Positions 10,350 to 26,585 of a DNA stretch of 37,123 nt are shown piece after piece. Location: assembly GCA_903916195.1 (NCBI GenBank), contig CAIWVP010000171.1, positions 1 through 37,123 on the forward strand, written 5' to 3'. The notes under the pieces were generated by a model that ran no database searches, was not told the origin of the DNA, and saw only the letters and a program-made list of their open reading frames with translations. The position numbers were made by a program, and so were the translations under genes. The DNA is from an uncultured Verrucomicrobiota bacterium (GTDB lineage Bacteria; Verrucomicrobiota; Verrucomicrobiia; Limisphaerales; UBA9464). How positions within the stretch are numbered: position 1 is the first letter of the stretch; every line of letters begins with the position of its first letter.

Positions 10350-13001
10350 TCACGGGATCCGCAGCAACTCCGCCTGGGTCCAGGAATCCTCGCGCTTCGC
10401 GGTCGCGGCGCGGGCGGCCTTGATGGTGGCTTCTGTCACGGGCGGGGCGGCGTGGCCCCATTCGCGGCGGATGTAGGTCAGGGCGTCGGCGATCTGCTGG
10501 TCGGTGAGCGCCTCGGCGAGCGCGGGCATGTTGAGCAGGTAGTTCACGCCCTTCACGGAGATCTCGTCGCGGACGCCGTGCAGCACGATGCGCGCGAGGC
10601 GTTGCTCGCTGCCGAGCGTCCACTCGGAATCGCGGAGCGGCGGTGCCAGGCCTTCCTGTCCGTTGCCGTGCGGCTGATGGCAGGCGCCGCAGACCACGGT
10701 GTAGAGCTCCTTGCCGCGGGCGAAGCTCGCCGCGTCGTCGTCTCCGAGCGCGGCGGCGGCGGGCGCGGGCGCGGCCATCCCTGGTTTGCCCGGCCACGCG
10801 AGCAACGGATCGACCCGTGCGACGAGGGACATCACTTCGGGGGATCCGATGGTCCGCAACTGGGCGACCGCTTTGGGCTCGGCGGGGAACCGGACCGGTC
10901 GGACGAGCGGCGCCGGTTGTCCGGGCTTCGCCAGGGGCACGGTCCCGGCGATGCCGCCGAGGATGGCGACCTGTTGCCAATCGCCGGGCTTCGGCATCGC
11001 GGCGAGGTCGAGCAGCCTCGCGATCTTTCCGGGGTCGCCTCCCAAGGCCACGCATCGGGCCAGGCCGGCGAGCAGCTGGGCGTGGCCGTTCTTCATGGTG
11101 GCGCAGACAGGGTCCTGGACCAGCGAGGCGAGGAAGTCGACCTCGCGTCCGGCAAGGCCGCTGATCACGGCGTCGAACCGCAGCGGGCTGGGCGCGGCGT
11201 TCATGAGCAGCACGCGGGAGATCGCCTCGGTCGCCGGCGTCCGGATCTCGCCGAGCGTGAGCAGGAGCTGGAGCTGCTCCTCGAGCGGGACGAACCCGGC
11301 GCGTTGGAGCACCAGGTTGATGGCGGCCTCGCGTTGCGGGCCTCCCAGGAATCCTTCGCTCAGCCGGAGCGCGGCGCCGCGGATCTTCGGTGCCGGATCG
11401 TCCAGCGCGGTCGCCAACGTCGCGAGGTCGAGTTCGCCGAGCCCTTCGAGCGTCCACAAAGCGTGGAGGCGTCCGGTCAGCGGCGCGGCGTCGCCGGCGC
11501 CGGCCAGCTTGCGGAGTTGCGGCACGGCCCCCGTGGCCCGGCGTTCGACGAGCATCTGCTGCGCGCGATCGCGCCACCAGCCGTTGGGATGCGACAGCTT
11601 CGCGACGAGGTCGCCGTCGGTGGGCCGGGCACCCAGCCGGTCGCGTCCGACCGGCCGGCCCTCCCGGACGACGCGCCAGATGCGGCCCATGTCGACGGGC
11701 GATTGCAGGCCGCGCGACTCGATCTGCTTGCGGAGATAGCTGGTGAGGTAGATGTGGTGCTGGATCAGGCCGCGGTAGAGGTCGACGATGTAGAGCGCGC
11801 CGTCGGGGGCGTTGTGCAGGTTGACCGGACGGAAACGTTCATCGGTCGAGGTGAGGAACTCGGCGCCCGGATAGGCGTTGGTGGCGGTGAGGAGGCCGTC
11901 CTGGTTGGTGATGCGCTCGCGGCGGACCATGTTGCCGGTCGGTTCGCAGAGGAACACGTCGCCGGTGAACTCGGGGCCGAACTGGTCACCGCGGTAGACG
12001 ACCGGTCCGCAGGCGCCGGTGAAGGTCGCGAGCTTGCCTTCGGGGGTCAGCTGGCCGGGCTGGTAGCCGCGGTTGACGCCGGGGTTGACGCGCGCGGTCC
12101 AGACCCTCAGGTCCTTCTCGATCTGCACGTTCGCGCCGAAGCCCGGGCGAAGGTCCGGATTGCGCGCGAGGTACCGGCTCTCCACGAGGTCGGCGCGGAG
12201 CGGGTCGGAATTGGAGTTGTGGAAGAGCCGGCCGTGGTCGTCCTGGGAGAGCCCCCATTGTCCGCGGGAGAGGGTGGGTTCTTTGGCCCAGTGGGTGACC
12301 GATCCGCCGAGCCATCGGTAGCGCCACGCGTGGTTGGCGGAGTAGACCCAGTTGTCGAGCCCCCAGGTCGGGCTGTTGCTGGCGTGCTCGGGGTTGGCCT
12401 TGCGGCCGAGGCGCGGGTCGTCCTGGGTCGCGTAATCGTCGGCGATCATCACCTTCTCGTCGGCCTTGCCGTCGCCGTCGGTGTCGCGCGCGAACCAGAG
12501 CCGCGGCGGTTCGGCGACGACCACGCCGTCCTGGAAGAGCATGAGCGAGCGGGGCATCACGAGGCCGCCGAGGAAGACCGTCCGCTTGTCCATGCGGCCG
12601 TCGCCATCGGTGTCCTCGAGCACGACGATGTTGCCGCTCGGTTGTTGTTCGCCGGTGCCGTCGGGTGTGGGCATGTAGCCGGTCATCTCGACGACCCAGA
12701 GGCGGCCCCGCGCATCGGCCTGCATGGCCACGGGCGAATGGACCAGCGGCTCGGCGGCGACGAGCTCGACCCGGAACCCCGGCGCGACGGCGAAGGTCTT
12801 GGCCTCCTGCTCCGGGGTGAGGACCGGGGCAGGCGGGATGATGTCCCGGGGCACGAGTTCGCGCTGGAGTTCGTTGGTCTTGTCGCCGTTCTGCGCCGCG
12901 GCCGTGAAGGCGAGGAAGACGGCGGCGAGCAGGCGGTGGATCGGTTTCATGGACATGGCGAGATACGGGCGACCGACGCCGCGAGACGCGAAAGGCTTCA
13001 T
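10350..13001 (-). CDS. PVC-type membrane-bound dehydrogenase with HEAT-like repeats and C-terminal c-type heme
   Basis: An 883-residue exported protein. A basic N-terminus and LLAAVFLAFTAAAQ form a signal peptide. Residues about 45-440 match the beta-propeller dehydrogenase domain common in Planctomycetes and Verrucomicrobia (LVAAEPLVHSPVAMQADARGRLWVVE is its opening block, with DTDGDGRMD Asp-rich loops). A helical, HEAT-like region follows to about 740. The C-terminus is a monoheme cytochrome c with C771-G-A-C774-H775 and an axial methionine candidate in LLNMPALAEALTDQQI. It probably oxidises a sugar or alcohol in the periplasm and passes electrons on through its own heme; the substrate is unknown. 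ATG 13001 has AAGGA four bases upstream; ATGs at 12956 and 12950 are alternatives that keep the signal peptide. Confidence 0.9.
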   Translation of the reverse strand: MKPFASRGVGRPYLAMSMKPIHRLLAAVFLAFTAAAQNGDKTNELQRELVPRDIIPPAPVLTPEQEAKTFAVAPGFRVELVAAEPLVHSPVAMQADARGRLWVVEMTGYMPTPDGTGEQQPSGNIVVLEDTDGDGRMDKRTVFLGGLVMPRSLMLFQDGVVVAEPPRLWFARDTDGDGKADEKVMIADDYATQDDPRLGRKANPEHASNSPTWGLDNWVYSANHAWRYRWLGGSVTHWAKEPTLSRGQWGLSQDDHGRLFHNSNSDPLRADLVESRYLARNPDLRPGFGANVQIEKDLRVWTARVNPGVNRGYQPGQLTPEGKLATFTGACGPVVYRGDQFGPEFTGDVFLCEPTGNMVRRERITNQDGLLTATNAYPGAEFLTSTDERFRPVNLHNAPDGALYIVDLYRGLIQHHIYLTSYLRKQIESRGLQSPVDMGRIWRVVREGRPVGRDRLGARPTDGDLVAKLSHPNGWWRDRAQQMLVERRATGAVPQLRKLAGAGDAAPLTGRLHALWTLEGLGELDLATLATALDDPAPKIRGAALRLSEGFLGGPQREAAINLVLQRAGFVPLEEQLQLLLTLGEIRTPATEAISRVLLMNAAPSPLRFDAVISGLAGREVDFLASLVQDPVCATMKNGHAQLLAGLARCVALGGDPGKIARLLDLAAMPKPGDWQQVAILGGIAGTVPLAKPGQPAPLVRPVRFPAEPKAVAQLRTIGSPEVMSLVARVDPLLAWPGKPGMAAPAPAAAALGDDDAASFARGKELYTVVCGACHQPHGNGQEGLAPPLRDSEWTLGSEQRLARIVLHGVRDEISVKGVNYLLNMPALAEALTDQQIADALTYIRREWGHAAPPVTEATIKAARAATAKREDSWTQAELLRIP

Positions 13002-13112
13002 CGGATCCTTCGGTCGGCTGGCGGCTGGCGGGAGTTAGGTACCCGCGTTCGGCGACCGAGCCAAGCCCGGTCGATCCGCGCGGTGCACGATCTCCGATCT
13101 TCAAGAATGGTT

Positions 13113-13142
13113 TTGACACCTCGCCGGCCGTTCCGGCATCCA
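13113..13142 (+). promoter_or_regulatory. Candidate promoter of the SAM-riboswitch operon
   Basis: TTGACA at 13113-13118 is a perfect -35 hexamer. About 18 bp later CATCCA (13137-13142) is only a weak -10 match. A start near 13150 would place the riboswitch P1 stem (13168) close to the 5' end of the RNA, as expected. Confidence 0.4.
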
Positions 13143-13167
13143 TTGCCCGTCCCGGGCGACCGGGACA

Positions 13168-13289
13168 CTCATCAAGAGTGACGGAGGGAACGGCCCGTTG
13201 ATGTCACGGCAACCGGTCGGACGGCAGTCCGATGACCAGGTGCCAAATCCGGTCCGGGACCCCAGCGATGGGGCGACGGCAAAGATGAG
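13168..13289 (+). promoter_or_regulatory. SAM-I (S-box) riboswitch aptamer
   Basis: The conserved SAM-I core is read directly: ATCAAGAG, then GGAGGGA, CGGCCC, GGCAACC and GGTGCCAAATCC in the right order and spacing. Stems can be drawn: P1 CTCATC (13168-13173) with GATGAG (13284-13289); P2 GTGAC (13178-13182) with GTCAC (13203-13207); P3 GGTCGGAC with GTCC-GAT-GACC around a GGCA loop; P4 CCCC with GGGG near 13260-13272. It binds S-adenosylmethionine and normally switches off methionine or sulfur genes. It lies 100 nt upstream of the threonine-synthase-like gene and controls four genes. Confidence 0.96.
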
Positions 13290-13323
13290 GAGAGCTGCTC
13301 CGCGTTTTCGCCCTCTTCTCATC
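13284..13323 (+). promoter_or_regulatory. Antiterminator pairing of the SAM-I switch
   Basis: GATGAGGAGAG (13284-13294), which contains the 3' strand of aptamer stem P1, is complementary over 11 bp to CTCTTCTCATC (13313-13323) with one G-U pair. When P1 is not formed this helix can form, and it consumes the 5' arm of the downstream terminator. Confidence 0.8.
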
Positions 13324-13344
13324 CGCACGGGAAGCGGGCTTTTT
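13310..13344 (+). terminator. SAM-dependent intrinsic terminator in the riboswitch expression platform
   Basis: GCCC-T-CTTC (13310-13318) pairs with GAAG-C-GGGC (13331-13339) across a 12-nt loop, followed directly by TTTTT (13340-13344). Its 5' arm overlaps the antiterminator strand 13313-13323, so the two are mutually exclusive. This is the standard OFF arrangement: SAM stabilises P1, frees CTTC, and transcription stops before the coding region. A second hairpin, ACGGGA..CGGGC with GCCCG..TCCCGT (13327-13360), can also form. Confidence 0.8.
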
Positions 13345-13389
13345 CATGCCCGGGTCCCGTCGCCGCGGCGAGAGCGCGACAGGATAGCC

Positions 13390-14652
13390 ATGAGCGACAA
13401 GCAAGGTTTCATGAAGGCGTTGAAGTGCCGTGAGTGCGGCCGCGAGGTCCCGCTCACCGCCACGCACGTCTGCGAGTTCGACTTCGGTCCGCTCGAGGTG
13501 GCCTACGACTACGAGCTGATCAAGAAGTCGTTGACCCGCGAGGTCATCTGTTCGCGTCCGCAGACGATGTGGCGCTACCGTGAGCTGCTGCCGATCGCGG
13601 GCGAGCCGACGGTCGGCCGGCAGGTCGGCTACACACCGCTCGTCAAGGCGGACCGTTTGGCCAAAGCGCTCGGCATCCGCGAGCTCTGGGTGAAGAACGA
13701 CGCGGTGAACTACCCGACGCTGTCGTTCAAGGACCGCGTGGTCTCCGTCGCGTTGAGCCGTTCGGTCGAGCTGGGCTTCAAGACCGTCGCCTGCGCCTCG
13801 ACCGGCAACCTCGCCAATTCCGTCGCCGCGAACGCGGCCGCGGCCGGCCTCGACGCGTACGTCTTCATCCCGTCCGACCTGGAGCTGGGGAAGGTCGTCA
13901 ACTCGCTCGTCTACGGCGCGAACGTCATCAGCATCAAGGGCCACTACGACGAGGTGAACCGGCTGTGCGCCGAGATCGCGGGCAAGTACGGATGGGCCTT
14001 CGTGAACGTCAACATGCGGCCCTACTATGCCGAGGGCAGCAAGAGCATGGGCTTCGAGATCGCCGAGCAATCGGGCTGGCGGGTGCCTGAGCACACGGTG
14101 GTCCCGATGGCCTCGGGATCGCTGCTCACCAAGATCCACAAGGCGTACCAGGAGTTCACCAAGCTCGGGCTCGTCCCGGAGTCGAAGTGGAAGGTCCACG
14201 GCGCCCAGGCCACCGGCTGCTCGCCCATCAGCGTCGCGCAGAAGGCGGGCCTGGATTTCTTCAAGCCGGTCAAACCGAACACCATCGCCAAGTCGCTGGC
14301 CATCGGCACGCCGGCCGACGGCTTCTACGCGCTCAAGGTGATGAAGGAGACGGGCGGCCATGGCGATGACGTGAGCGACGACGAGATCCGCGACGGCATC
14401 CGCCTGCTGGCGGAGAACGAGGGCATCTTCGCCGAGACCGCCGGCGGCGTGACGGTCGGTGTCGCGAAGAAGCTCATCGCTTCCGGCAAGATCCCGGCCG
14501 GTTCCAGCGCGGTGCTCTGCATCACCGGCAACGGCCTGAAGACGCTCGAGGCCATGACCGGCCACGTCGGCAGCACCCGCGAGATCCGGCCCAGCCTCCG
14601 CGAGTTCGAGGCCGTCATGGCGCAGGACAAACCGGAGCTGGTGGCCCGATGA
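13390..14652 (+). CDS. Threonine-synthase-like PLP enzyme under SAM-I control (candidate homocysteine-forming enzyme)
   Basis: A 420-residue fold-type II PLP enzyme closest to threonine synthase. The N-terminus has a small zinc-ribbon-like set of cysteines (C13, C16, C28). The PLP lysine is K114 in PTLSFKDRVVS, and ASTGNLANS (136-144) is the phosphate or substrate loop. Threonine synthases act on O-phosphohomoserine, the branch point to methionine. Start ATG 13390 has AGGA six bases upstream, and the earlier in-frame ATG lies in the riboswitch. The stop overlaps the next gene (ATGA), implying translational coupling. Threonine synthesis is not normally repressed by SAM, and the partners are sulfur carriers. 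I therefore infer that it may add sulfur to activated homoserine to form homocysteine. Ordinary threonine synthase activity remains the alternative. Confidence 0.88.
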   Translation: MSDKQGFMKALKCRECGREVPLTATHVCEFDFGPLEVAYDYELIKKSLTREVICSRPQTMWRYRELLPIAGEPTVGRQVGYTPLVKADRLAKALGIRELWVKNDAVNYPTLSFKDRVVSVALSRSVELGFKTVACASTGNLANSVAANAAAAGLDAYVFIPSDLELGKVVNSLVYGANVISIKGHYDEVNRLCAEIAGKYGWAFVNVNMRPYYAEGSKSMGFEIAEQSGWRVPEHTVVPMASGSLLTKIHKAYQEFTKLGLVPESKWKVHGAQATGCSPISVAQKAGLDFFKPVKPNTIAKSLAIGTPADGFYALKVMKETGGHGDDVSDDEIRDGIRLLAENEGIFAETAGGVTVGVAKKLIASGKIPAGSSAVLCITGNGLKTLEAMTGHVGSTREIRPSLREFEAVMAQDKPELVAR

Positions 14653-14921
14653 TCTCCATCTCCATCCCGCCGACGCTGCGGCGCTTCTGCGGGGACCAAT
14701 CGACCGTGGACGTCTCGCCGGGGACCGTCGCGACGGCCGTCGGCGAACTGCACGACCGCTTCAACGGCATCCGCGACCGGTTGCTCGACTCCGGCGGGAG
14801 CATCCGCGGCAGCGTGCTCATCTTCGTCAACCAAGAGGACATCCGCTTCCTGCAGGGGCAGGAGACCCCGCTCAAGGAAGGCGACGAGGTCAGCATCATC
14901 CCCGCTTTCGCCGGAGGCTGA
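14649..14921 (+). CDS. ThiS/MoaD-family sulfur-carrier protein, first copy
   Basis: A 90-residue beta-grasp protein of the MoaD/ThiS ubiquitin-like family. It ends in IIPAFAGG, the free C-terminal Gly-Gly that is adenylated and converted to a thiocarboxylate in family members. Core blocks are VDVSPGTVATAV, VLIFVNQEDIRFL and LKEGDEVSIIP. The ATG overlaps the previous stop by 4 bp. It is clearly a paralogue of the next gene, with the C-terminal half most alike. No adenylyltransferase (ThiF/MoeB type) is encoded in the window, so activation would rely on an enzyme elsewhere. Molybdopterin synthase small subunit is a less likely reading, since no other Mo-cofactor gene is nearby. Confidence 0.9.
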   Translation: MISISIPPTLRRFCGDQSTVDVSPGTVATAVGELHDRFNGIRDRLLDSGGSIRGSVLIFVNQEDIRFLQGQETPLKEGDEVSIIPAFAGG

Positions 14922-14980
14922 AGATTTCACGCCTTGCCCGGGCCGCATCCATCTCCGACACTCCTCCCACCGAAACCGAT

Positions 14981-15256
14981 ATGTCTGTCAAAGTCCGCAT
15001 CCCCACACCTCTCCGGAAACTCACCAACGAGCAGGAGCTCGTCGAGGTCGCGCCCGGCACCGTCGCCGCGGCCATCAAGGAGTTGCAGGAGAAATTCCCC
15101 GGGATCCAGGAGCGCTTGGTGGACGACGCCGGGCAGGTGCGCCGCTTCGTCAACGTCTACGTGAACGAGGAGGACATCCGCTTCCTCCAGAACAACGACA
15201 CCGTCCTCAAGGATGGTGACGAGGTCAGCATCATCCCCGCGATCGCCGGGGGTTGA
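14981..15256 (+). CDS. ThiS/MoaD-family sulfur-carrier protein, second copy
   Basis: A 91-residue beta-grasp protein ending in IIPAIAGG, so it can also form a C-terminal thiocarboxylate. It shares most of its C-terminal half with the preceding protein, including a near-identical EDIRFLQ segment and GDEVSIIPA, while the N-terminal half (LRKLTNEQELVEVAPGTVAAAIKELQEKF) is closer to the usual MoaD-like pattern. It lies 59 bp after the first copy, in the same transcript. The two may load different partners, or one may have taken over a scaffold role. The sequence alone does not say which. Confidence 0.92.
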   Translation: MSVKVRIPTPLRKLTNEQELVEVAPGTVAAAIKELQEKFPGIQERLVDDAGQVRRFVNVYVNEEDIRFLQNNDTVLKDGDEVSIIPAIAGG

Positions 15257-15295
15257 ACCGTTCCGGCTCCGATCCCGATCCCCGCCCTTACTGCC

Positions 15296-15583
15296 ATGGC
15301 CGCCTCCAAAAAAACCAAGCCCGTCGCCAAGAAAACCGCACTGCAATCGTCGCGGATGTGGCTGATGTATCCGCCGAAGCTGATCAAGCATCCGGTGATC
15401 TGGGAGCTGGGCCATAAGTTCGCGGTCACCACCAATGTGCGGCAGGCGAGCGTCACCGACGAGATCGGTATCGTCTGCCTGGAGCTTGAAGGACCCGCTT
15501 CCGAGCTGACCGCCAGCGTCAAGTGGCTCAAGAAGCTCGGCGTGAACGTCGAGCCCGTGGAGCTCAGCACGATGGAGTCCTGA
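15296..15583 (+). CDS. Stand-alone NIL-domain protein
   Basis: A 95-residue protein. A basic Lys-rich tail (KKTKPVAKKT) of about 15 residues leads into a NIL domain: PVIWELGHKF, VTTNVRQASVTDEIGIVCLELEG and WLKKLGVNVEPVE. NIL domains are ACT-like modules known from the C-terminus of the methionine importer ATPase MetN, where they sense methionine, and from ferredoxin-fused proteins linked to homocysteine formation in methanogens. As the last gene of the SAM-controlled operon, 39 bp after the second carrier, it may sense methionine or help the sulfur transfer. Which one is inference. Confidence 0.88.
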   Translation: MAASKKTKPVAKKTALQSSRMWLMYPPKLIKHPVIWELGHKFAVTTNVRQASVTDEIGIVCLELEGPASELTASVKWLKKLGVNVEPVELSTMES

Positions 15584-15775: not shown

Positions 15776-16069
15776 ATGACGAAGCGCGACCTGGTCGTCC
15801 GCATCGCGGCTGAAACTGGACTCACCCAAGAGCAGATCTTGGATGTCGTCCAGAAGACGTTGGACTACATCTCCGGCTCCGTGGCCGAGGGTGAGACGGT
15901 CGAGCTCCGCAATTTCGGAGTGTTCGAGGTGAAGATCCGCAAAGCCCGCATCGGCCGGAACCCGAACTCGCCCGAGGACGACGTGCCCATACCGCCGCGC
16001 GCCGTGGTGAAGTTCAAACCCGGCAAGGAGATGCGGGAATCGGTGCTGAAGCTCACGCCCAAACGCTGA
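15776..16069 (+). CDS. HU/IHF-family DNA-binding protein
   Basis: A 97-residue nucleoid protein of normal HU/IHF length. MTKRDLVVRIAAETGLTQEQ forms the dimerising helices, ELRNFGVFEVKIRKARIGRNP is the family signature with the start of the DNA-binding arm, and FKPGKEMRESV the C-terminal helix. The arm tip has NPNSP-EDDVPIP; the acidic EDD insertion next to the intercalating proline region is unusual. It probably compacts and bends DNA as a dimer. The signature does not separate HU from IHF subunits. It is convergent with the VWA gene, with 137 bp between them that contain GC-rich imperfect inverted repeats but no clear terminator. Confidence 0.93.
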   Translation: MTKRDLVVRIAAETGLTQEQILDVVQKTLDYISGSVAEGETVELRNFGVFEVKIRKARIGRNPNSPEDDVPIPPRAVVKFKPGKEMRESVLKLTPKR

Positions 16070-25447: not shown

Positions 25448-25601
25448 TCGGCGAACAGGATGCGGGCAATGGGACGACCGGGGCACCGACGACCACGGGC
25501 CATTGGATCCCGGACCGAGGGTAAAACCCGCTTGCCCGGCCCCGGCCGGTCCGCCGTAATAGGTGGCGTCCAGAGCACTCCGCATCCTGAAACCGCATCC
25601 T

Positions 25602-26585
25602 ATGGGCCGCATCTACAACAACATCGTCGAGACCGTGGGCCGCACCCCGCTGGTCAAACTCAACCGCGTCACCGCCGGCCTGGAAGCCACGGTGTTGCTC
25701 AAGTGCGAGTTCTTCAACCCGCTCGGCAGCGTGAAGGACCGCATCGGCATGGCGATGATCGAGGACGCGGAGCGCCGCGGCGTGCTCAAGCCGGGCACGA
25801 CCATCATCGAGCCGACGTCGGGCAACACGGGCATCGCGCTCGCGTTCGTCGCGGCCGCCAAGGGCTACAAGATCATCCTCACGATGCCCGAGACGATGTC
25901 GCTCGAGCGCCGGACGTTGCTCGCGCTGCTCGGCGCGAAGCTGGTGCTCACGCCCGGCACCGAAGGCATGAAGGGCGCCATCGCCCGTGCTGAACAGCTC
26001 GCCAAGGAGACGCCAGGATCCTGGATCCCGCAGCAGTTCGAGAACCCGGCGAATCCAGCGGTCCACTCGGCAACGACCGGGCCCGAGATCTGGGAAGACA
26101 CCGACGGCGCGGTCGACATCTTCGTCGCCGCGGTCGGCACCGGCGGCACCATCACCGGCGTCTACGAGTTCATCCATCCCAAGAAGGCGGGCTTCACGGC
26201 CATCGCCGTCGAGCCGAAGGATTCACCGGTCATCACCCAGACCTTGAAGGGCGAGCCCGTGAAACCCGGCCCGCACAAGATCCAGGGCACCGGCGCCGGC
26301 TTCGTGCCGAAGAACCTCCACCTCAAGGACGCCGCGGGGAACCCGCAGATCGTCGAGGCCATCCAGGTCGCGAACGACGACGCCTTCGCGATGGCCCGCC
26401 GACTCGCCAAGGAGGAGGGACTGCTCGTGGGCATCTCCACCGGCGCGAACGTCGTCGCCGCGATCGAGGTCGCCCAACGCCCCGAGAACAAGGGCAAGAC
26501 CATCGTCACCATCGCGTGCTCGACCGGCGAACGCTATCTCTCGACCGCGCTCGCGGCCGAGGCCCGTGCCGAGGTCGGCGGCTGA
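25602..26585 (+). CDS. cysK: Cysteine synthase (O-acetylserine sulfhydrylase)
   Basis: A 327-residue fold-type II PLP enzyme that makes cysteine from O-acetylserine and sulfide. [18 protein letters not shown] is the family opening. The PLP lysine is K45 in GSVKDRIG, the substrate loop is TSGNTG (72-77), and the phosphate-binding loop is GTGGTITG. The C-terminal block [15 protein letters not shown] is typical. The length matches CysK. A cystathionine-beta-synthase-like role cannot be excluded, but no extra CBS domain is present. It is followed after 141 bp by sufT, which has its own promoter-like site; ACCGGCGCCGGT plus TTTT near 26621-26636 may terminate it. Confidence 0.95.

Follow-up and report, generated by a model that had tools for sequence, protein, structure and literature searches.

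The window analyzed here is one whole contig of 37,123 nucleotides (nt) (C171; GenBank CAIWVP010000171.1) from the genome of an uncultured Verrucomicrobiota bacterium of the order Limisphaerales (assembly GCA_903916195.1; G000 in our set), which comprises 4.39 Mb in 211 contigs and is 96% complete. On its forward strand, positions 13166-15583 hold an operon made up of an S-adenosylmethionine (SAM)-I riboswitch, a pyridoxal 5′-phosphate (PLP) enzyme of the threonine synthase (ThrC) family, two small carrier proteins ending in Gly-Gly, and a stand-alone NIL-domain protein. We use "ThrL" as a working name for the ThrC-family enzyme of this riboswitch operon. The SAM-I (S-box) aptamer at 13166-13291 matched RF00162 with 70.8 bits (gathering score 44.4, E 8.9e-15). 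ThrL (13390-14652), a fold type II enzyme and our proposed homocysteine synthase, matched PF00291 with 224.1 bits and TIGR00260 with 270.1 bits, the latter against a cut-off of 167.1. Carrier 1 (14649-14921; PF02597, 51.3 bits) overlaps the end of the ThrL gene by four bases at its start and is followed by carrier 2 (14981-15256; PF02597, 70.8 bits); both are ThiS/MoaD-like, pass the ThiS cut-off of 22.5, and end in Gly-Gly. The 95-residue NIL protein (15296-15583) matched PF09383 with 34.0 bits (cut-off 24). These matches confirmed the anatomy given in a preliminary description of this DNA, which had further read the operon as making homocysteine, a predicted function that is supported by the genome comparisons reported here.

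We examined the occurrence of the operon across a sample of 97 genomes of the order, counting ThrL as present where a protein was at least 77% identical to that of the window. ThrL orthologues were found in 63 genomes, at 77-100% identity, and 60 of the 63 neighborhoods were read; G006, G055, and G095, in which ThrL is broken, were left out. A carrier gene lay directly after ThrL in all 60. The NIL gene was found downstream of the carrier in 57, and the contigs of the other three end 163-296 bases past ThrL. Carrier 2 of the window represents the type that comes after ThrL in most other neighborhoods, and a second carrier was present in 5 of the 60, window included. The same 97 genomes yielded 62 RF00162 matches in 61 genomes, and 60 of these matches are followed on the same strand by ThrL at a distance of 72-250 nt. 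With ThrL and carrier together every time, and SAM-I ahead of ThrL in 60 of 62 cases, this arrangement is not due to chance. Conserved co-occurrence of the gene families had been proposed in the preliminary description as a check on its four-gene set. The linkage of ThrL with a carrier held up; the carrier pair proved to be a minority arrangement, and the NIL gene is not part of an invariant core, being absent beside ThrL in three genomes from outside the order (G132, G153, and G217, below).

Because nearly all of its occurrences precede ThrL, SAM-I is in effect the switch of the ThrL operon in this sample. The genome of the window contains no further SAM-I match, and no other Rfam match in the window reached the gathering threshold. 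Two matches in the order were not upstream of ThrL: one in G074, which stops exactly at a contig end, and a second match in G024. The latter (L270, G024:C57) has an unusual setting, lying ahead of an AAA-type open reading frame (ORF), which it slightly overlaps as called, and of an ORF that weakly matches a metallopeptidase domain. In the RF00162 search of the order, three ThrL genomes had no adjacent SAM-I match (G055, G080, and G093); the ThrL piece of G055 starts at base 1 of its contig, and G093 was again without SAM-I in a repeat search.

Between the aptamer and ThrL, the leader can be folded in two ways. A putative antiterminator hairpin (13284-13323) pairs 13284-13294 with 13313-13323, and its 5′ strand, as read off the sequence, shares bases with the 3′ side of helix P1 of the aptamer and includes GATGAG, the partner of the CTCATC (13168-13173) that closes the aptamer. 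Its 3′ strand, 13313-13323, sits within an alternative hairpin at 13310-13339 (-16.4 kcal/mol), which is followed by five T and forms a putative intrinsic terminator (13310-13344). In the minimum-free-energy fold of 13280-13400, the z-score was -1.81, with 8 of 200 shuffles folding equally well, and positions 13000-13450 held two terminator-like sites against 0.4 expected. A simple terminator rule was satisfied in 30 of 30 homologous leaders, the subset of the 62 SAM-I matches with loci, where shuffles would give 5.0; the window leader also satisfies the rule, though 23.5% of its shuffled versions do so too. With a hairpin that overlaps P1 and a terminator-like site after the aptamer, the predicted layout is that of an OFF switch acting by termination.

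We then compared ThrL with ordinary threonine synthases. The best-scoring profiles for ThrL were those of threonine synthases, with only 36.8 bits to the cysM profile TIGR01138 (cut-off 394.2), and ThrL retains three motifs shared with ThrC: SFKDR, with lysine 114 invariant in 27 aligned rows, STGN, and TGNGLK. The neighborhood of the active site is altered. NPTGSFKDR of ThrC becomes N[YHFI]P[TS]LSFKDR, STGN is followed by LAN, and NSVNPHRLEG gives way to NVNMRPYYAEG or a near variant; these three changes were found in 21 of 21 ThrL rows and in none of 9 ThrC rows. In addition, GNAGN of ThrC is replaced by ASGSL or AGGSL in the six ThrL rows aligned there, and ThrL does not carry the ThrC motif set of NPTGSFKDR, GNAGN, and NSVNPxRxEG. 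A quick tree, in which the ThrC rows have long branches, separated the 21 ThrL rows from the rest by a branch whose Shimodaira-Hasegawa-like approximate likelihood ratio test (SH-aLRT) support is 100. A ThrL structure predicted from 27 close relatives had a mean predicted local distance difference test (pLDDT) score of 47.8, too poor for a fold search. The genome of the window encodes a second ThrC (C37:6400-7392), which is 36% identical to ThrL and scores 329.6 bits to TIGR00260. Across the 63 ThrL genomes of the order, another ThrC-type match, defined by 30-41% identity or by the ThrC2 N-terminal domain PF14821, was present in 57, G000 included; assignment by TIGR00260 was made for the G000 copy. 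Judged by its motifs and its coexistence with this second copy, ThrL is an extra paralogue, distinct from ordinary threonine synthase.

The standard enzymes of homocysteine synthesis showed a complementary distribution. PF01053, which covers MetB, MetC, MetY, and MetZ, had no match in the genome of the window in a search that was positive in 13 of 14 control genomes; absence of MetB, MetY, and MetZ had been anticipated in the preliminary description. Profile searches of this genome also gave no MetX, MetA, or DUF39; these three matched 7, 6, and 3 of the 14 controls, respectively. MetX was called by E-value, since no genome or control reached the model cut-off of 500 bits, and the raw tally of 31 of 97 became 30 when a 109-bit partial match in G019 was dropped. 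MetX and DUF39 were searched in the 97 genomes of the order, and MetA and PF02574 in 72 ThrL genomes (the 63 plus nine from outside the order). MetX was present in 7 of 63 genomes with ThrL versus 23 of 34 without it (Fisher p 1.7e-8); as genomes are not independent, MetX was also counted by family, giving 7 of 42 with ThrL versus 15 of 20 without (p 1.3e-5). PF01053 followed the same direction, with 15 of 63 versus 22 of 34, and complete PF01053 enzymes in the order score above 180 bits. Both MetX and PF01053 were missing from 48 of the 63 ThrL genomes, MetA was found in none of the 72, and DUF39 (PF01837) was found in none of the 97, G000 among them. This distribution suggests that the ThrL operon replaces the usual homocysteine route. 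A genome with no second threonine synthase and a normal MetY/MetZ route had been named in the preliminary description as speaking against its reading; we found the opposite, a second ThrC present and MetY/MetZ absent. The homocysteine methyltransferase domain PF02574 was detected in 63 of the 72 ThrL genomes, G000 included. The ORF exceeds 1200 residues in 51 genomes, as expected of MetH; that of G000 has 833 residues, and a MetH in this genome is probable.

ThrL also occurs beyond the order. In a profile search of 240 genomes of the phylum, nine genomes besides G000 had ThrL matches above 650 bits (G104, G132, G138, G150, G153, G168, G174, G217, and G248), and the next eight matches reached at most 258 bits; six of those eight were examined and had no carrier or NIL alongside. 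With nine of 239 other genomes, ThrL is not phylum-wide. Among the best 80 of 354 relatives in a contig scan, taxonomic labels were verrucomicrobial, unspecific, or, as with Proteobacteria, read as misassigned. The nine include Methylacidiphilum kamchatkense Kam1 (G248), Methylacidiphilum fumariolicum SolV (G138), and the nematode endosymbiont Xiphinematobacter (G132, 0.9 Mb). A carrier follows ThrL in all nine, and NIL lies beside ThrL in G174 and in five genomes of one family (f65). SAM-I precedes ThrL in G138, G150, G168, G174, and G217, and none was found at ThrL of G104, G132, and G153 in an Rfam search of eight loci, all but that of G248. PF01053 gave only partial matches in the nine, at 26.5-31.2 bits, and scans of five of the ORFs identified aminotransferases of the DegT or class I/II type.

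The biology of these organisms bears on whether a homocysteine route should be expected in them. Kam1 has been grown in culture with methane as its only source of carbon and energy, and both Kam1 and V4 are cited as growing with no nitrogen source supplied (PMC6688271), which is a strong argument against methionine auxotrophy. Most key pathways were predicted for all amino acids in Methylacidiphilum infernorum, in a portion of its genome paper that does not name methionine (PMC2474590). According to its genome paper, Xiphinematobacter has kept most steps for the essential amino acids, methionine being the exception (PMC4607532), and a later paper describes several methionine genes as apparently missing (PMC7857533). 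It nevertheless retains ThrL, the carrier, and an E1-rhodanese protein, with switch and NIL not found at the operon. In G132 and G153, an RNase P RNA is located about 3 kb from ThrL (L236 and L237).

We also examined the carriers, the NIL protein, and the candidates for sulfur loading. The closest solved structure to carrier 2 is Mycobacterium tuberculosis CysO (chain 3dwg_C, E 1e-20). A C-terminal Gly-Gly was present in 68 of 71 complete carriers, and 3 more copies are cut by contig ends. The remaining three carry short extensions after the Gly-Gly (QNES, TR, and ITEKFQI, in L146, L148, and L238), which would need trimming before thiocarboxylation. The NIL protein of the window has PF09383 only, without a ferredoxin fusion, and among solved structures gave a weak match to MetN (E 0.21); a single cysteine was found in the last 85 residues of 52 of 63 NIL proteins. 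As NIL is not beside ThrL in G132, G153, and G217, it lies outside the invariant core, and a regulatory or accessory role is more likely for it than a catalytic one; the Xiphinematobacter operon, with its core kept and neither switch nor NIL beside it, fits NIL as a regulator. An E1 of the ThiF family was found above cut-off in all 10 genomes searched (G000 and the nine outside genomes), and the four E1 proteins scanned (G000, G132, G138, and G217) all had a C-terminal rhodanese domain. The E1 of Xiphinematobacter may also serve thiamine. In G217, one 480-residue frame combines a ThiS-like carrier, a ThiF E1, and a rhodanese, and a JAMM protease gene lies just upstream (L260, 451-897 and 1171-2610); this arrangement may be a compact sulfur carrier system that loads itself.

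From this combination we propose a pathway in which the operon supplies homocysteine for the synthesis of methionine and SAM, and SAM would turn the operon off. Threonine synthase removes phosphate from O-phosphohomoserine and then adds water at the beta carbon. ThrL would likewise bind an activated homoserine on PLP and eliminate its leaving group as threonine synthase does; a carrier thiocarboxylate would then attack the unsaturated intermediate at the gamma carbon in place of the addition of water at the beta carbon. The thiocarboxylate would be formed on the Gly-Gly end of the carrier after adenylation by a MoeB/MoeZ-type E1 with rhodanese, encoded elsewhere in the genome. The product would be homocysteine, free or at first carrier-bound, to be methylated by a MetH-type enzyme. 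The NIL protein, as in the methionine importer MetN, would probably tune the enzyme by acting as a sensor of methionine or of an amino acid related to it. Since G000 has ThrC, O-phosphohomoserine is expected there, and neither MetX nor MetA, the known families making acyl-homoserines, was found in it. We hold a homocysteine function of the operon to be highly probable, and the use of carrier-borne sulfur in the ThrL reaction only a little less so. The reaction as a whole, in which ThrL makes homocysteine from a carrier thiocarboxylate and an activated homoserine (O-phosphohomoserine being the likeliest), is in our judgment probable; for O-phosphohomoserine as the substrate, our preference is more guarded.

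Several observations weigh against this pathway. By its TIGR00260 score ThrL exceeds the NCBI threonine synthase cut-off, as did all four ThrL proteins scanned, which are thus named threonine synthase by NCBI, and six of the 63 ThrL genomes (G027, G038, G057, G059, G078, and G092) yielded no further ThrC at our thresholds. The altered motifs near the active site make O-phosphohomoserine uncertain as the ThrL substrate, and some of the altered positions are contacts of the substrate phosphate in Thermus thermophilus ThrC. Seven genomes have both routes, that is, ThrL with MetX and PF01053 (G043, G047, G069, G080, G084, G086, and G089), and eight have ThrL and PF01053 without MetX. Conversely, 12 of the 97 genomes, four of them at least 90% complete, have neither ThrL nor the MetX-PF01053 pair. 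PF02574 was not found in G132 and G153, where MetE was not searched. M. tuberculosis MoeZR makes the CysO thiocarboxylate, with which CysM joins O-phosphoserine, and CysO is not loaded by MoeBR, which is distinguished by having two CXXC motifs (PMC3227635); the E1 of G000 has two such motifs, CYRC and CPVC, and is of the MoeBR type by that mark. Finally, no JAMM protease was found near ThrL, in that a single JAMM query, run on the ThrL loci examined and not on whole genomes, matched only itself.

The profile score and the six genomes without another ThrC would both be accounted for if ThrL, in line with its database name, were an additional threonine synthase under SAM regulation, with the carriers and NIL serving something else. 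We consider this improbable. Another ThrC-type match accompanies ThrL in the great majority of genomes, the G000 copy being ThrC by TIGR00260, and the neighborhood of the active site is altered in every ThrL row and in no ThrC row. SAM-I control and the invariant linkage to a CysO-like carrier would have no evident use in threonine synthesis, and it is with ThrL that the lack of MetX and PF01053 goes together. The likeness of carrier 2 to CysO would fit another reading, in which ThrL is a cysteine synthase that depends on its carrier as CysM does on CysO, a chemistry that is published (PMC3227635), and acts on O-phosphoserine or O-acetylserine, with SAM-I reflecting general sulfur economy. That seems to us a shade less probable still. 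Further along the window, past the gene for an HU-type DNA-binding protein that comes next after the NIL gene (15776-16069), lies a gene for cysteine synthase A, CysK (25563-26585; TIGR01139, 435.9 bits, cut-off 350.95), so that a standard cysteine synthase is available, which argues against a cysteine role for ThrL, as does its low score to the cysM profile. A cysteine synthase would also leave Methylacidiphilum and similar organisms, which have no MetA and no PF01053 enzyme, with no homocysteine route found.

A third explanation keeps homocysteine as the product and changes the substrates: ThrL would use free sulfide, or a different activated homoserine supplied by some unknown acyltransferase, and the carrier would act as a chaperone or in delivery. 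Many PLP sulfhydrylases accept sulfide, and the motifs that hold the phosphate in ThrC are altered in ThrL. Against this explanation stand the strictness of the carrier linkage (60 of 60 neighborhoods in the order and 9 of 9 outside it), the prevalence of the Gly-Gly end, and the lack of MetX in 56 of the 63 ThrL genomes and of MetA in 72 of 72. We regard this explanation as unlikely, to about the same degree as a second threonine synthase, and retain homocysteine synthesis from carrier-borne sulfur as the preferred reading.

The proposed system can be set against those already known. The CysM-CysO-MoeZ-Mec system of M. tuberculosis is alike in having a fold type II (PALP family) PLP enzyme, a Gly-Gly CysO-like carrier, an E1-rhodanese, and a phosphorylated amino acid as likely acceptor. 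It differs in that ThrL belongs to the threonine synthase group, is under SAM-I control, has no Mec-type protease found nearby, and would be expected to carry out gamma- rather than beta-replacement, with homocysteine as the product. With ThrC (TIGR00260), ThrL shares its sequence family and the three conserved motifs, including the PLP lysine of SFKDR, and it differs in the motifs of its pocket, in its operon and regulation, and in occurring alongside a second ThrC. In the HcyS-MetY system of Wolinella succinogenes, the PLP enzyme is reportedly the O-acetylhomoserine sulfhydrylase MetY, of fold type I and PF01053, with MetX making the O-acetylhomoserine. G000 has neither PF01053 nor MetX, and ThrL has the unrelated ThrC fold. 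The likeness lies in the sulfur source, as homocysteine sulfur in Wolinella comes from a protein thiocarboxylate (PMC6271081). A pathway of DUF39 with NIL/ferredoxin in methanogens and Desulfovibrio (PMC5764234) likewise has a NIL domain in a homocysteine-forming system; it differs from the ThrL operon in that DUF39 was found in none of the 97 genomes, the NIL protein here has 95 residues and PF09383 only, and most NIL proteins (52 of 63) have one cysteine in their last 85 residues. By this comparison, the ThrL system would work like CysM-CysO and yield the product of the Wolinella pathway, without belonging to either. Amino acid synthesis by way of protein-thiocarboxylate sulfur transfer is known; the type of PLP enzyme for homocysteine would be new. 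We recognized no description of a ThrC-type homocysteine synthase in the open-licence PubMed Central literature, a body that does not include subscription journals and preprints, and the accessible portions of PMC12452182, PMC7311316, PMC7857596, and PMC9026213 contain no mention of the ThrL system. On balance, we lean towards the fullest form of the proposal: a fold type II, threonine-synthase-derived PLP enzyme carrying out gamma-replacement on O-phosphohomoserine by a protein thiocarboxylate would be an undescribed kind of homocysteine synthase, and the sole de novo route in Methylacidiphilum, in much of one large verrucomicrobial order, and in a 0.9-Mb nematode endosymbiont.

A published survey lists free-living organisms for which none of the known homocysteine pathways was found (PMC5764234). 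If our reading is correct, a conserved, SAM-controlled operon fills such a gap in part of the Verrucomicrobia, in a segment of core metabolism, the synthesis of methionine and SAM. It would add thiocarboxylate gamma-replacement on a threonine synthase scaffold to enzyme chemistry, and it would correct the misannotation of ThrL proteins as threonine synthase through TIGR00260. It would also explain how methanotrophs grown on methane are able to make methionine, and it suggests that Xiphinematobacter, reported to be short of methionine steps, keeps the core of the ThrL route.

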